From NCBI GenBank assembly GCA_937936785.1, contig CALDDQ010000005.1:1-64000 (forward strand): a DNA stretch of 64,000 nucleotides, given 5' to 3'. The position numbers were made by a program, and so were the translations under genes. The first letter of the stretch is position 1; every line of letters begins with the position of its first letter. Shown piece by piece: positions 13,831 through 19,981 of this stretch. The notes under the pieces are model-generated. The model was given only the letters and a program-made list of their open reading frames with translations, was not told the DNA's origin and searched no databases. This DNA comes from an uncultured Endomicrobiia bacterium. GTDB taxonomy: Bacteria > Elusimicrobiota > Endomicrobiia > DTEH01.

Positions 13831-14952
13831 CTATATTTTTTTCTCATAAACACGATACTTTTTGTGAATTTTAGTACCTAACATTTCCGCTGCACGTATC
13901 ATCATTATGTTATCTTCTAAAATCCATGAAAACTCCCCTTTTTCATAACCACAAGATAACCCTTTTTTTATTGTATCTAAAAACATTACTGTCTCAACAC
14001 CTTTACCCCGGAATTTTTTCTTTACTCCCATTATCATTACACGAATAGATTTTATTTTTTTTCTATAATATAAAAACTTTATAATGCCAAACAAACCTAA
14101 TTTACCATTTAATTTTTTTAATACTTCATTATAATTAGGTACTGCAATAATTATTCCAGCAGGTTCCGCACCCATGTATGCAAAAACTATAAACCTCGGA
14201 TCTACTAAAGGTTTCAACCTAACTGCTTGAGAAATAAATTCTTCTTCTGTCCAAGGCACAAAACCCCAGTTTTTTTCCCATGCTTCGTTATAAATTTCTA
14301 CTGCTACTTTTAGTTCTTTGTCAAAATTTTTTAACTCAACTTCTCTTAAAGTTAACTCTGGATATTTTTTTTTAATCATATCAACAACTTTACTTAACCT
14401 TTCTATTGGCAAAGAACTTTCTTTGTTTAGCCACAGGTACGCATACAAATCCTTAGCTTTTTTCATACCATATTTTGTTAACAAAAAGTTATAATAAGGT
14501 GGATTATGCGGCATCATTAAAAAAGGTTCGGAATCGTATCCTTCACATAATAATCCCATCTCATCATTTGTTGATGGTGATGTAGGTCCTATCATTTTTA
14601 ACATACCTTTTTCTTTTAACCACAACTCTACTGTAGACAACAACATTTCTGTTACTGAGTAATCATTAACACTTTCATAAAATGCAAAAAAACCTGTCTT
14701 CTCATTGTGAAATTTTATAAAGTTGTAATCAATCACACCTGCACACCGGCCTAAGATTTTACCAGTAGCGTCTTCAACATAAAACAACTTTTTTTCTGCA
14801 TGTTTCCAAAACAAATTTTTTTTCTCATCAAACAAAGATATCGTATCACTAATTATTTGTGGAACCCAATACTTATCATCCTTATAAACTTCTGACTGAA
14901 ACTTTATAAATTTCAAAAGTTCTTCTTTTGTATTAACACTTTTAATTCTCAT
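13831..14952 (-). CDS. GNAT-fold protein, candidate ceramide synthase (bCerS-like)
   Basis: A 373-residue protein of the GNAT acyltransferase fold. A typical run GPTSPSTNDEMGLLCEGYDS followed by MMPHNPPYY and KAKDLYAYLW (about 120-175) marks a family often named only N-acetyltransferase. A second acyl-CoA/ACP-type core with PAGIIIAVPNY is at about 270. Bacterial ceramide synthase of Caulobacter also belongs to this fold and amide-links a fatty acyl chain to the sphingoid base. The adjacent upstream gene (12 bases away) is a serine-palmitoyltransferase-like enzyme, which suggests the same role here. That function rests on context and fold memory, not proof. Confidence 0.6.
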   Translation of the reverse strand: MRIKSVNTKEELLKFIKFQSEVYKDDKYWVPQIISDTISLFDEKKNLFWKHAEKKLFYVEDATGKILGRCAGVIDYNFIKFHNEKTGFFAFYESVNDYSVTEMLLSTVELWLKEKGMLKMIGPTSPSTNDEMGLLCEGYDSEPFLMMPHNPPYYNFLLTKYGMKKAKDLYAYLWLNKESSLPIERLSKVVDMIKKKYPELTLREVELKNFDKELKVAVEIYNEAWEKNWGFVPWTEEEFISQAVRLKPLVDPRFIVFAYMGAEPAGIIIAVPNYNEVLKKLNGKLGLFGIIKFLYYRKKIKSIRVMIMGVKKKFRGKGVETVMFLDTIKKGLSCGYEKGEFSWILEDNIMMIRAAEMLGTKIHKKYRVYEKKI

Positions 14953-14963
14953 AACAAACTTTA

Positions 14964-16283
14964 TTATTTTTTTGTAAACCGGTTACCAAAAATTTCTTTC
15001 ATCCATTTTTTTGTTCCTAACACAAACTTAGATACCATACGGCGTGGATACGATCTTTTTAATGATTTTAATTTTATTCTCTTACCTTTATATGTTCCAC
15101 CCGGAATTATATCAAACTGTCTTCCAACCTTTGCAAATTTGTCCAAAACAAACTCAAGTTGTTCATCTGTATGTATTGCCATATAACTTGTTCTAATCAA
15201 TTCCTCTCCTTCAGGAACTGCTGGCGGTAATACCGGTGAAGCAAAAACTCCTTCATCAAACAACGATCTACATACAGCAAAAACTTTTTGTAATCCTCCT
15301 CCAATAACTATTGGAATAATTGGTGTCTGAGAATATCTAGTGTTAAAACCTAAATCTTTAAACCCTTGTAACATTCTATTTGTTATCTCCCACAATCGTT
15401 CTCTACGTTCTGGTTCTTCTTCTATAATATCTAAAGATACAGATATCGCTGCAACTTGAGCTGGAGGTAATGAAGCTGTAAATATTAAAGAACGTGCAAA
15501 ATGTTTTATATAATGAACCACTTCTTCTCTTCCTGCAATAAATCCGCCTATAGAAGCTAAAGATTTGCTCGCAGTAACCATTATTAAATCAACATCAAGT
15601 TCTAACCCAAAATGTTCCGCTGTCCCACGACCGTTTCTACCTAATACACCTAAAGAATGTGCGTCGTCTACCATTATACGAGAATTATAAAATTTAGCCA
15701 ACCGAACAATCTCTGGCAAGTTACAAATATCTCCCTCCATACTAAATACGCCATCTACTACAATAAGTTTTGGTTTGTCTTCATATTTTTTCAATACTCG
15801 TTCTAAATCTTCCATATCATTATGCTTAAACCGCACCATCTCGCCATAAGATAACCTGCACCCGTCAAGAATAGACGCATGATCAAGTTTGTCTGTTATA
15901 ACAACATCTCCTCTACCAACTAATGCTGATATAACACCTTGGTTAACATGATGTCCTGTAGTAAAAAGCGTTGCAGATTCTTTACCAATAAATTTTGCAA
16001 ACTTTTTCTCAACCTCATCATGAATATCTAATGACCCACTTAGAAATCTTGATCCAGTACAACTTGTTCCATACTTTTTTATAGCTTTAATTGAAGCTTC
16101 TTTAACTCGTGGATGTATTGTTAGGCCTAAATAATTATTTGAACAACAAACTATTTTTCGTTCTCCATTAATAATCACTTCTGAAGTTTGTGCAGTAGAT
16201 ATCGGTTTGAAATATGGGTATACACCCATCATCTGTGCTTTCTTCGCATCAGTAAATTTATAACATTTTGCAAAAATGTCCAT
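14964..16283 (-). CDS. spt: Alpha-oxoamine synthase, probable serine palmitoyltransferase
   Basis: A 439-residue PLP enzyme that condenses an amino acid with an acyl thioester. LDHASILDGC holds the PLP-stacking histidine (His135), VDDAHSLGVLG the PLP nitrogen aspartate, and TASKSLASIGG the Schiff-base Lys240. The SKSLASIGG form is nearer to serine palmitoyltransferases than to the GKA(F/L)G forms of BioF and Kbl. No biotin genes or threonine dehydrogenase are near, and the next gene is GNAT-like, pointing to sphingoid base formation. An unusual basic tail of about 45 residues follows the catalytic domain and could bind membrane. AAGGAG is the ribosome site. BioF activity remains an alternative. 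Confidence 0.7.
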   Translation of the reverse strand: MDIFAKCYKFTDAKKAQMMGVYPYFKPISTAQTSEVIINGERKIVCCSNNYLGLTIHPRVKEASIKAIKKYGTSCTGSRFLSGSLDIHDEVEKKFAKFIGKESATLFTTGHHVNQGVISALVGRGDVVITDKLDHASILDGCRLSYGEMVRFKHNDMEDLERVLKKYEDKPKLIVVDGVFSMEGDICNLPEIVRLAKFYNSRIMVDDAHSLGVLGRNGRGTAEHFGLELDVDLIMVTASKSLASIGGFIAGREEVVHYIKHFARSLIFTASLPPAQVAAISVSLDIIEEEPERRERLWEITNRMLQGFKDLGFNTRYSQTPIIPIVIGGGLQKVFAVCRSLFDEGVFASPVLPPAVPEGEELIRTSYMAIHTDEQLEFVLDKFAKVGRQFDIIPGGTYKGKRIKLKSLKRSYPRRMVSKFVLGTKKWMKEIFGNRFTKK

Positions 16284-16360: not shown

Positions 16361-16783
16361 TTACTTATTACCTACAATGGTTAACAAAATTTCTCTATTA
16401 CGAGGCCGATTGTCAAATTCTATAAAAACAATTTCTTGCCATATTCCAAGTTGTAACTTATTCTCTTTAATAGGAACAGTTAAAGATGGTCCTACTAAAG
16501 ATGCTCTTAAATGTGAAGTTGCATTTCCCTTTACATGAGATACATCGTGTTGATATTTTTTATTTTCTTCAATAATTTTTTTAAACATTTCTTGTGTATC
16601 TATAATCAATCCAGTTTCATATTCCATAGTCGTTACAGCACCTGTTGCACCAGGAACAAATATTGTAATTAAACCTTTTTTAATAGACTGTTCCTTTACA
16701 AAAGAGTCTACCATATCTGTTATATTAACAATATCAATCTCACCTTTGGTATTAAGCTCTATCTTTGAATGTAAAATTTCCAT
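16361..16783 (-). CDS. yjbQ: YjbQ family protein (UPF0047)
   Basis: A 140-residue YjbQ/UPF0047 protein. Family motifs include the GLITIFVPGATGAVTTME segment with its conserved acidic end, NATSHLRASLVG with its histidine, and the C-terminal GIWQEIVFIEFDNRPR. Some members can make thiamine phosphate weakly, so databases call it a secondary thiamine-phosphate synthase; its true role is open. It ends the run that starts with the HD-GYP gene, four bases away. Confidence 0.88.
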   Translation of the reverse strand: MEILHSKIELNTKGEIDIVNITDMVDSFVKEQSIKKGLITIFVPGATGAVTTMEYETGLIIDTQEMFKKIIEENKKYQHDVSHVKGNATSHLRASLVGPSLTVPIKENKLQLGIWQEIVFIEFDNRPRNREILLTIVGNK

Positions 16784-16786
16784 TTT

Positions 16787-18802
16787 TTATTCCGTATCTA
16801 ACCCTAATATCATAGTAGGATTTTCTTTTATCAAATCCAAGAATTTCTCTACTAAAACAGGATCAAACTGTTTTCCTTTATTTTTTTGTAACTCTTCAAT
16901 AACCTCCCTAACTGACATTTTTTTTCTATAGGGTCTATCTGACAACATTGAATCAACTGCATCTGCTATTGATAAAATTCGTGCCCCATACGGTATCTCA
17001 TCTGCTTTTAATCCTTCAGGATAGCCATTGCCATTATAATATTCATGATGATGTTTTACAATTTCCGCAACATCTTTTAAAAATGGTAACGCTTCCAAAA
17101 TTTTAGCACCTTTTATAGGATGCTGTTTAATTTCTTGCCATTCTGTTTCTGTAAGTTTATCAGGTTTGGCTAAAATATAATCATGTATCGCAATTTTACC
17201 TAAGTCATGCAATATTGCTGCTTGAGTTATAACAAAAATTTCTTTTTGTGACAATCCAAGTTCTCTTGCAAGAATTGCAGCATATTTTACAACATCGTCA
17301 GTATGTCCTATTAAATAAGATTCTTTTGATTCAAGAGTCAATGACAATGCACGAATAATTTGTAAATAAGACATATCCAATTCTTTATATAAACAACTGT
17401 TTTGTATTGCTATTGCTAATTGATCCGATAAAGATTTAATTATTTCTATTTCATCTATAGAAAATAATTCCCCATCTCCTTTTCTATCATCCATAGTTAA
17501 TATACCAATAAGTTTTTCATTATAAAATATTGGAATAATAACTACAGCACCAAAAATATTTAACCCTTCAGTAAACTCTTTAAATTTATCTTTTTCTAAA
17601 GTGTGCATTGCAATATCTAACATAAAAGGTTCCTTATTTTTTTCTAACCAACGAATTATTTTTCTATTATTGAAATATAACAAATCTGGCTTAGTAAAAC
17701 CTTTTCCGCTAACTAATTTATAACTTTGTTCTGATTCATTTTTATTATTATCCTTATCTAACAAAAAAATTGCAATTTTTGATACTCCAAAGGTCTGTTG
17801 TATTCTATCTAATACAAATTGTAACATACGGTCAAAATCTAAAATTTCTACTATTGACCTGGCTGTTTCTTGTATTAGTTTCTGGTATTTGACTTTTTTA
17901 CTAAAAATAATACTTCCTAAAAACTTCTCTGCTTTATATAAAATACTTGTTGAAAAAAATATTAAAACTAAAATAATTAAAGATGTTCTGCAACTAGTAA
18001 CATATGACAACTTTATAATGTTAAATAAAAAGTTTAATATTAAATAATGTGAAATAACTATTACGCTCAAAAACACACTATAAAACAAAATTTCATAATA
18101 AAATTTTTCCACGTTTAACAAAAACTGTTTCTTCATAAAAAATAACATTGAAATTATCCATACTAAAGCCCCTACTGGCACTAAATAACTATATGTAGTT
18201 ATACCAAACAATGGTAACATAGCACCAAAAATTAATGCAACAAAAACATAAAACAGTAAACTCATCATAAAATATTTAAAGTATTCTTTTTTATGTTCAT
18301 CTGAATTATTACTACGATACAACTTATACACTAAATATATCGAATAAAATAATGTGGTTATTATCCAAATTCTAAAAATTAAATCCATAATCCCAGATTC
18401 TCTAACTCCAGGATAAACAGAATAAACTTTAGTTATACCTAATGGAGTAAAAGCAGAAATTGTAATTATTGCTGCAATTATGTATTGGATAATTACAATA
18501 GGAGTATATTTTTTATCTCTGTCAAAAACTGTAACTAAATAAAAATAACTTGTTACACAAAAAGCAGATATCCAAGATAACCTAAGAAAAAAAGTTGATA
18601 CAGGAATTTTGTTTGATAAAAACACAGCAAAAAATATGCTCGCAGAAAATATACACGAAAATGCAATTAATAACAAAATAGCCCGTTTTAGGTTAGGGAT
18701 TTGTTTTAACGGAGAATCTTTACACCTATAAATAGAAACAAACAGAATAAATAACCAAATCGTCACTACAGAATTTACTATTAATATTACATCTTTTAAC
18801 AT
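16787..18802 (-). CDS. 7TM-GAF-HD-GYP signalling protein
   Basis: A 671-residue sensor. About 290 N-terminal residues hold seven to nine membrane segments like the 7TM region of some histidine kinases. A GAF domain (about 315-470) may bind a small ligand. The C-terminal HD-GYP domain has HDLGK and then HHEYYNGNGYPEGL (about 585-596), the metal ligands and GYP motif of cyclic-di-GMP phosphodiesterases. It should lower cyclic-di-GMP in response to a membrane or cytosolic cue. No GGDEF protein is in the window. It is not preceded by a clear promoter; the C45 hydrolase gene ends 30 bases before its start. Confidence 0.9.
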   Translation of the reverse strand: MLKDVILIVNSVVTIWLFILFVSIYRCKDSPLKQIPNLKRAILLLIAFSCIFSASIFFAVFLSNKIPVSTFFLRLSWISAFCVTSYFYLVTVFDRDKKYTPIVIIQYIIAAIITISAFTPLGITKVYSVYPGVRESGIMDLIFRIWIITTLFYSIYLVYKLYRSNNSDEHKKEYFKYFMMSLLFYVFVALIFGAMLPLFGITTYSYLVPVGALVWIISMLFFMKKQFLLNVEKFYYEILFYSVFLSVIVISHYLILNFLFNIIKLSYVTSCRTSLIILVLIFFSTSILYKAEKFLGSIIFSKKVKYQKLIQETARSIVEILDFDRMLQFVLDRIQQTFGVSKIAIFLLDKDNNKNESEQSYKLVSGKGFTKPDLLYFNNRKIIRWLEKNKEPFMLDIAMHTLEKDKFKEFTEGLNIFGAVVIIPIFYNEKLIGILTMDDRKGDGELFSIDEIEIIKSLSDQLAIAIQNSCLYKELDMSYLQIIRALSLTLESKESYLIGHTDDVVKYAAILARELGLSQKEIFVITQAAILHDLGKIAIHDYILAKPDKLTETEWQEIKQHPIKGAKILEALPFLKDVAEIVKHHHEYYNGNGYPEGLKADEIPYGARILSIADAVDSMLSDRPYRKKMSVREVIEELQKNKGKQFDPVLVEKFLDLIKENPTMILGLDTE

Positions 18803-18832: not shown

Positions 18833-19981
18833 CTATTCAAGATAAAACTCTAAAGAATTTGTTCTACAAGGATTACCAAAAAATACTTTTATTTGTCTTT
18901 GTTTCGGGACAAAAATTAATCCTACTTGAGTAGACAACAACTTCCCATGCCTGCATATTGTATTATCATTTCCTAAATCTTCTCCCAAGTGATCCTTTAA
19001 AATACTATCTAACTCTTTTATACCAATAATTTTATACTTTTTTACAAGTTCTTCAAACCTATTATACCTTAACTCACTCGATTCATGAACACGCCTACCT
19101 TTTAGACCTTCAGGAATATTTTTTTTCTTAAATCGTGCTTCATGGGAAATATCAAACGGTTTTGTCTCTTTACATAAATAATAATTTGTTGCTAATAAAA
19201 AACCTTGATCAGGTTTTCTTATTCCTAAATGTTCTGGTGTTATTTCTACACACACAGCATGATTCGCGCTATCAGCTAAAGTTAAAATAGCACCATTTGG
19301 ATACCTAAAATTTTTTATAAAAGTTATTGCTTCTTCTACATTTGAACATCTTTCTAAAATTTGTTGTACAAGTATTGTTATAGGAATTCGCCTTTCTGTT
19401 TTTTCTGTAGTCAAACCATAATTGTACATTACAACAAGTCCTTTTTCATTCATTCCATCATGAGAACCTACTATTTGTTTATAAGTAACCTCTAAACTTT
19501 TATACCCTTTTTTTGGATTACTCTGTCTTACCAAATGATCCGTTGAAAACTCTGATAAATAATCAAAATTTTTTGCTAAAATTAAGTTTGGCGTTTTTAA
19601 TGAACTTGGTAAAATACATATTGAAGAACAACCTCCTAAAAAATAGGTAGTATCGTTTGACATAACTTCTAACGATTGTATTGCAAAAAGTTTTGCAAGT
19701 GAAGTTTTGGATCCTTCAGATAAACCTTTTATCCTTAAAGAATATTCTGGTAATAAAACTTCTATAGGACGACGCCATCTTTTTAACAATTCGTTTTTTA
19801 ACAAAAATGAAAACAAAGTTTTTGGAATTAATTTTGGTTTTAAGATTTTTATTACTTCTGAGTTGATAAACCTATCATACATATTACTTATTTCACAGGA
19901 AAATTTCTTCCCTTGTTCATAGCCCATATCAAAATAGTCACCTGATACTTTTATATAATTATTCATAATATAATTATCCAT
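18833..19981 (-). CDS. C45-family Ntn hydrolase / acyltransferase-like
   Basis: A 382-residue member of the C45 family of N-terminal nucleophile hydrolases (isopenicillin N acyltransferase and relatives that cleave linear amide bonds). The precursor would cut itself before Cys118 in YFLGGCSSIC, freeing the nucleophile. LILAKNFDY and GSHDGMNEKGLVVMYNY are the following family motifs, where the mature enzyme has its oxyanion and substrate pocket. No signal peptide, so it would act in the cytosol. Its start overlaps the ketopantoate reductase gene by 8 bases. Substrate unknown; a beta-lactam role is unlikely. Confidence 0.75.
   Translation of the reverse strand: MDNYIMNNYIKVSGDYFDMGYEQGKKFSCEISNMYDRFINSEVIKILKPKLIPKTLFSFLLKNELLKRWRRPIEVLLPEYSLRIKGLSEGSKTSLAKLFAIQSLEVMSNDTTYFLGGCSSICILPSSLKTPNLILAKNFDYLSEFSTDHLVRQSNPKKGYKSLEVTYKQIVGSHDGMNEKGLVVMYNYGLTTEKTERRIPITILVQQILERCSNVEEAITFIKNFRYPNGAILTLADSANHAVCVEITPEHLGIRKPDQGFLLATNYYLCKETKPFDISHEARFKKKNIPEGLKGRRVHESSELRYNRFEELVKKYKIIGIKELDSILKDHLGEDLGNDNTICRHGKLLSTQVGLIFVPKQRQIKVFFGNPCRTNSLEFYLE

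Follow-up and report, generated by a model that had tools for sequence, protein, structure and literature searches.

Does a pair of neighboring genes in an uncultured member of the Elusimicrobiota encode the core of a sphingolipid pathway? Bacterial sphingolipids were long thought to be rare. Some Elusimicrobiota have small genomes and live inside the flagellates of termite guts as intracellular symbionts. The window analyzed here is a stretch of 64,000 nucleotides (C5:1-64000) from a 1.56-Mb genome in 25 contigs that is 96% complete and falls in the same class as the Endomicrobiaceae, and statements on genome-wide presence or absence come from searches of this host genome. The first gene of the pair (14964..16283, minus strand) encodes an Spt-type alpha-oxoamine synthase of 439 amino acids, a predicted 3-ketosphinganine synthase (serine palmitoyltransferase, SPT). 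The second (13831..14952, minus strand) encodes a 373-amino acid tandem-GNAT N-acyltransferase of the YghO/bCerS family, a predicted bacterial ceramide synthase. The first-pass annotation, which had read the pair as a ceramide module, placed 12 bases between the two genes; the gap is 11 bp (14953-14963). The reading itself is supported. The pair very probably encodes both enzymes for the cytoplasmic part of bacterial ceramide synthesis, and the ketone would be reduced by a CerR homologue whose gene lies at another site in the genome.

The two genes are part of a longer run on the minus strand. Domain and family models identify a YjbQ-like gene (UPF0047) immediately upstream (16361..16783, minus strand), followed by a gene for a GAF-HD domain protein of the predicted cyclic-nucleotide phosphodiesterase type (16787..18802, minus strand). 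Next is a gene for a C45/AAT-type Ntn acyltransferase or hydrolase (18833..19981, minus strand) that scores 165 bits to NF040521 (cut-off 85). Speculatively, its product might be an N-acyl-amide enzyme. The order AAT, HD-GAF, YjbQ, Spt, GNAT, MoxR is kept in all five genomes (5/5) of the window's family. Among the neighboring genes of the window, neither an acyl carrier protein (ACP) gene nor a reductase gene adjoins the pair, as had been noted at first pass.

The top curated model for the synthase is NF047600 (SerpalmtaseCFB). The score of 530 bits is under the curated cut-off of 640, which is an annotation threshold and not a biological feature, and thus no curated model names the protein. 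TIGR01825 (394 bits), bioF (392 bits), and Kbl (308-369 bits) score lower. In the PDB, the best sequence match is the Sphingobacterium SPT (3a2b, 406 bits), and the lower matches are a Thermus enzyme (303 bits), Sphingomonas SPT (265-281 bits), and cysteate acyltransferase (CAT; 246-248 bits). The AlphaFold model superimposes on 3a2b with a TM-score of 0.97 at 1.4 A and 49% identity over the catalytic domain. The first-pass annotation had called the enzyme serine-palmitoyltransferase-like from the motif SKSLASIGG and Lys240, and both the motif and the residue number are correct. Lys240 (codon 15564..15566, minus strand) aligns with the PLP-binding lysine in SKSLAS of Sphingobacterium multivorum SPT, and the SPT-type motifs DHASI, DDAHSLG, GSRFL, SKS, PAVP, and IRTS are kept relative to 3a2b.

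One superfamily holds all of these enzymes, and the high scores of the bioF and Kbl models would also fit a housekeeping enzyme of the BioF, Kbl, or HemA type that lies beside an unrelated acetyltransferase. A tree was the check proposed at first pass, and in a maximum likelihood tree of 40 sequences the synthase groups with Spt. The branch that separates the Spt side from Kbl and TIGR01825-like enzymes has support of 96/92, and that side also takes in CAT and one unassigned Bacteroides plasmid enzyme. A union of the synthase with BioF was rejected in AU tests (p 0.0004), as was one with Kbl/TIGR01825 (p 0.002). In the host genome, bioB has no match over the cut-off and tdh has no match, and a BioF or Kbl enzyme would therefore be without its pathway. 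Assignment to BioF, Kbl, or HemA is rejected by the tree, the AU tests, and the failure to find bioB and tdh. The linkage of Spt with GNAT and CerR genes, conserved over many phyla, also argues against a chance neighbor, and we give the housekeeping reading next to no weight.

A closer relative has to be weighed within the Spt side of the tree. CAT forms the neighboring clade, and the separation of the Spt clade, including the Elusimicrobiota, from CAT is weakly supported (89/37). The tree places them apart, and a clade uniting the Elusimicrobiota with CAT is only borderline in the AU test (p 0.051). If the synthase used cysteate, as CAT/SulA does, the GNAT protein would N-acylate capnine and the product would be a sulfonolipid. 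The PDB scores given above favor SPT over CAT by a wide interval (406 vs 246-248 bits), and the synthase does not share the CAT-type columns GYPAGSR/AYPMGAR and FAK. We regard a sulfonolipid pathway as very improbable, and SPT is the preferred identity.

The neighboring protein matches no Pfam or NCBIfam model, and a PDB sequence search with it gave nothing significant. Its homology to E. coli YghO spans the entire protein (34% identity over 384 columns, E 3e-72), and full-length homologues are found in many phyla. Its structure is predicted with a pLDDT of 93, and the Foldseek matches are tandem GNAT enzymes. The Caulobacter ceramide synthase bCerS is known as CC_1154, which we take to be the same protein as CCNA_01212. 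CC_1154 is an N-acyltransferase and one of five genes required for dihydroceramide formation in Caulobacter, and yghO (ECD_02850) is its E. coli counterpart (PMC9386255). The link from the GNAT protein to the Caulobacter enzyme runs via YghO and this published statement of homology. The first-pass annotation had named the ceramide synthase family for this protein and had considered that it might instead fall in a family without such members; its relation to YghO, the counterpart of CC_1154, bears out the former (PMC9386255). In some Elusimicrobiota, a second GNAT paralogue that is ~29% identical is present (L082:7981-9222 and similar loci), and it is away from Spt in the one locus that was read.

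How often the two genes travel together was assessed in the best 80 named relatives of the GNAT protein, which come from many phyla and for which the flanks were fetched. An Spt gene is found in the flank of 49 of these 80, within 500 bp in 46, and a nearby Spt is always on the same strand as the GNAT gene. Both Spt and CerR are in the flank in 42/80. This co-location is far beyond chance. A different function for the GNAT relatives that lack a nearby Spt is unsupported: all 23 such genomes tested (23/23) encode a strong Spt elsewhere, and in the GNAT tree Spt-linked genes are interspersed with unlinked ones. Co-occurrence within the phylum was surveyed in 150 sampled Elusimicrobiota genomes, where Spt was counted as strong at E <= 1e-110. 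Both genes are present in 126 genomes, GNAT only in 4, Spt only in 1 (at a contig end), and neither in 19 (Fisher p 3e-19, uncorrected for relatedness among genomes that are not independent).

Variation of the locus was also seen within the phylum. In other Elusimicrobiota families (L070-L080), the pair is preceded by a cytidylyltransferase-like gene and, where tested, by biotin carboxylase and biotinyl carrier protein genes, which connect it to the supply of malonyl-CoA. Three genomes of the Endomicrobium group show deletion or degradation of Spt at its position between CerR and GNAT (L195 in G001, L061:8894-9138 in G017, and L196 in G122). CerR and GNAT are intact in two of these three loci and broken in the third. 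One possible reading of this loss is that long-chain bases are scavenged from the host.

The first-pass annotation proposed a genome search for AcpR and CerR. The search recovered CerR; for AcpR, the E. coli query returned only a weak ACP match (30 bits, on C3). The CerR homologue (C3:386-1441) shares 47% identity with a CerR that is linked to Spt in another genome (G066) and scores 269 bits, vs 48 for the next-best epimerase. That CerR is missing from the host genome is therefore rejected. The three genes lie in the order CerR-Spt-GNAT in most sister families of the class, but the window's own family has CerR apart from the pair. It is also away from the pair in the four relatives of this family, where a stop and a contig break interrupt one copy. 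The start of the C3 contig (L111:1-225) has repeats of ~36-40 nt at 66-nt spacing, which lie at the contig end and resemble the terminal part of a CRISPR array.

The sole small ACP found in the host genome looks housekeeping, and an AasR query of the genome, run as a search without a positive control, found nothing. AcpR and AasR have been described as partners of the rhodobacterial SPT, and thus the absence of AcpR is no deficit here (PMC9386255). The synthase is of the CFB type, for which the rhodobacterial AcpR/AasR pair is not expected.

From these data, we propose a pathway for the ceramide backbone in which the CerR gene is separated from the other two. Spt would form 3-ketosphinganine by condensing a long-chain acyl thioester (CoA or ACP) with an amino acid, which is most likely L-serine. 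The tandem-GNAT protein would then acylate the amine with a second chain to yield 3-keto-ceramide, and the product of C3:386-1441 would reduce the ketone. The direct basis for this pathway is homology, tree position, predicted fold, gene linkage, co-occurrence, and the presence of the third gene; the reaction, substrate, step order, and product are taken from characterized relatives and are put forward on that analogy. Reduction is reportedly placed before acylation by other authors. The order given above follows the scheme with Spt and bCerS as cytoplasmic enzymes and a later reduction of the product by CerR (PMC11087976).

The amino acid is the step at which a different product could arise. 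Bacterial Spt can use alanine, and lysine has been suggested, according to one report (PMC11334938), and the choice of amino acid substrate cannot be read from the sequence here. With alanine, N-acylation by the GNAT protein would lead to a 1-deoxyceramide, and another amino acid would give another ceramide analogue. The nearest characterized enzyme is an L-serine SPT, and its active-site motifs are conserved in the synthase, which makes an analogue unlikely, though clearly less so than a sulfonolipid. L-serine and a ceramide backbone remain the preferred reading.

The known systems differ from this one mainly in how the genes are arranged. The five-gene dihydroceramide cluster of Caulobacter and E. 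coli consists of spt, acpR, epi/cerR, aasR, and aca/bcerS. The host genome has Spt, bCerS, and a CerR homologue in common with this cluster, and it differs in the unlinked CerR, the lack of a detected AasR homologue, and the housekeeping appearance of its only small ACP. In E. coli, the locus reads spt, acp, epimerase, acyl-AMP ligase (FAAL), and yghO, with yghO encoded on the other strand as the last of the five genes. This locus (as L035:3525-9122) is found with at least 80% of the query covered in 4039/5426 complete E. coli genomes. The Sphingomonas GNAT gene is near Spt, about 6 kb away. The Elusimicrobiota GNAT gene, in contrast, lies directly beside Spt, and it shares with bCerS and YghO the full-length homology, the tandem-GNAT predicted fold, and the linkage to Spt. 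In Rubrobacter and on Streptomyces plasmids, Spt and GNAT are likewise direct neighbors on the same strand; there, the NAD-dependent reductase (CerR) follows them in the cluster, whereas the window's family has it at another site.

Besides its score under the NF047600 cut-off, the synthase differs from S. multivorum SPT and its family in a C-terminal tail. The first-pass annotation had described a basic tail, and the protein does run 47 residues beyond the end of the Sphingobacterium match (residues 393-439; 14967..15107, minus strand), with a net charge of +15 and an amphipathic segment, KKWMKEIF. A similar tail of 32-51 residues with a charge of +6 to +15 is found in 25 of 87 Spt sequences, and these 25 share a KKW(M/I)KNL(F/W)-like amphipathic segment. 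All but one of the tail-bearing proteins (24/25) are assigned to the Elusimicrobiota. In the same comparison of 87 sequences, the tail is absent from the Bacteroidota Spt and from the sampled Endomicrobium Spt, and one Myxococcota Spt has a tail of a different kind. AlphaFold places a helix at residues 415-436 with low confidence.

Caulobacter Spt is soluble and bCerS is peripheral to the membrane, which makes a membrane tether a reasonable reading of the tail (PMC11087976). We propose that the basic amphipathic tail may hold Spt at the membrane. A broader model, which we offer tentatively and hold at somewhat under even chances, is that the ceramide machinery of the Elusimicrobiota is membrane-tethered, with Spt kept next to bCerS on the inner membrane by its conserved C-terminal helix, whereas the Caulobacter Spt is soluble. 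The pathway would be ancestral in much of the phylum under the same model, and some Endomicrobium lineages would now be losing it through deletion of Spt.

This kind of pathway is already known from other bacteria, and its occurrence in the Elusimicrobiota is apparently unreported. A metagenome study raised the number of candidate sphingolipid phyla to 40 from Spt sequences (PMC11334938). In the searchable literature, no published statement was found on sphingolipids or Spt in the Elusimicrobiota or Endomicrobium, and the searchable papers mentioned neither the near-universal presence in the phylum nor the extra basic tail on Spt. The Elusimicrobiota-type basic amphipathic tail is the most novel element of the system, and it provides a concrete hypothesis for how a bacterial Spt may be kept at the membrane. 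For lipid analysis, a cultured or enriched species of the phylum offers a direct test case. About five in six of the sampled Elusimicrobiota genomes, small ones included, keep both Spt and bCerS, and by implication these bacteria benefit from the lipid.
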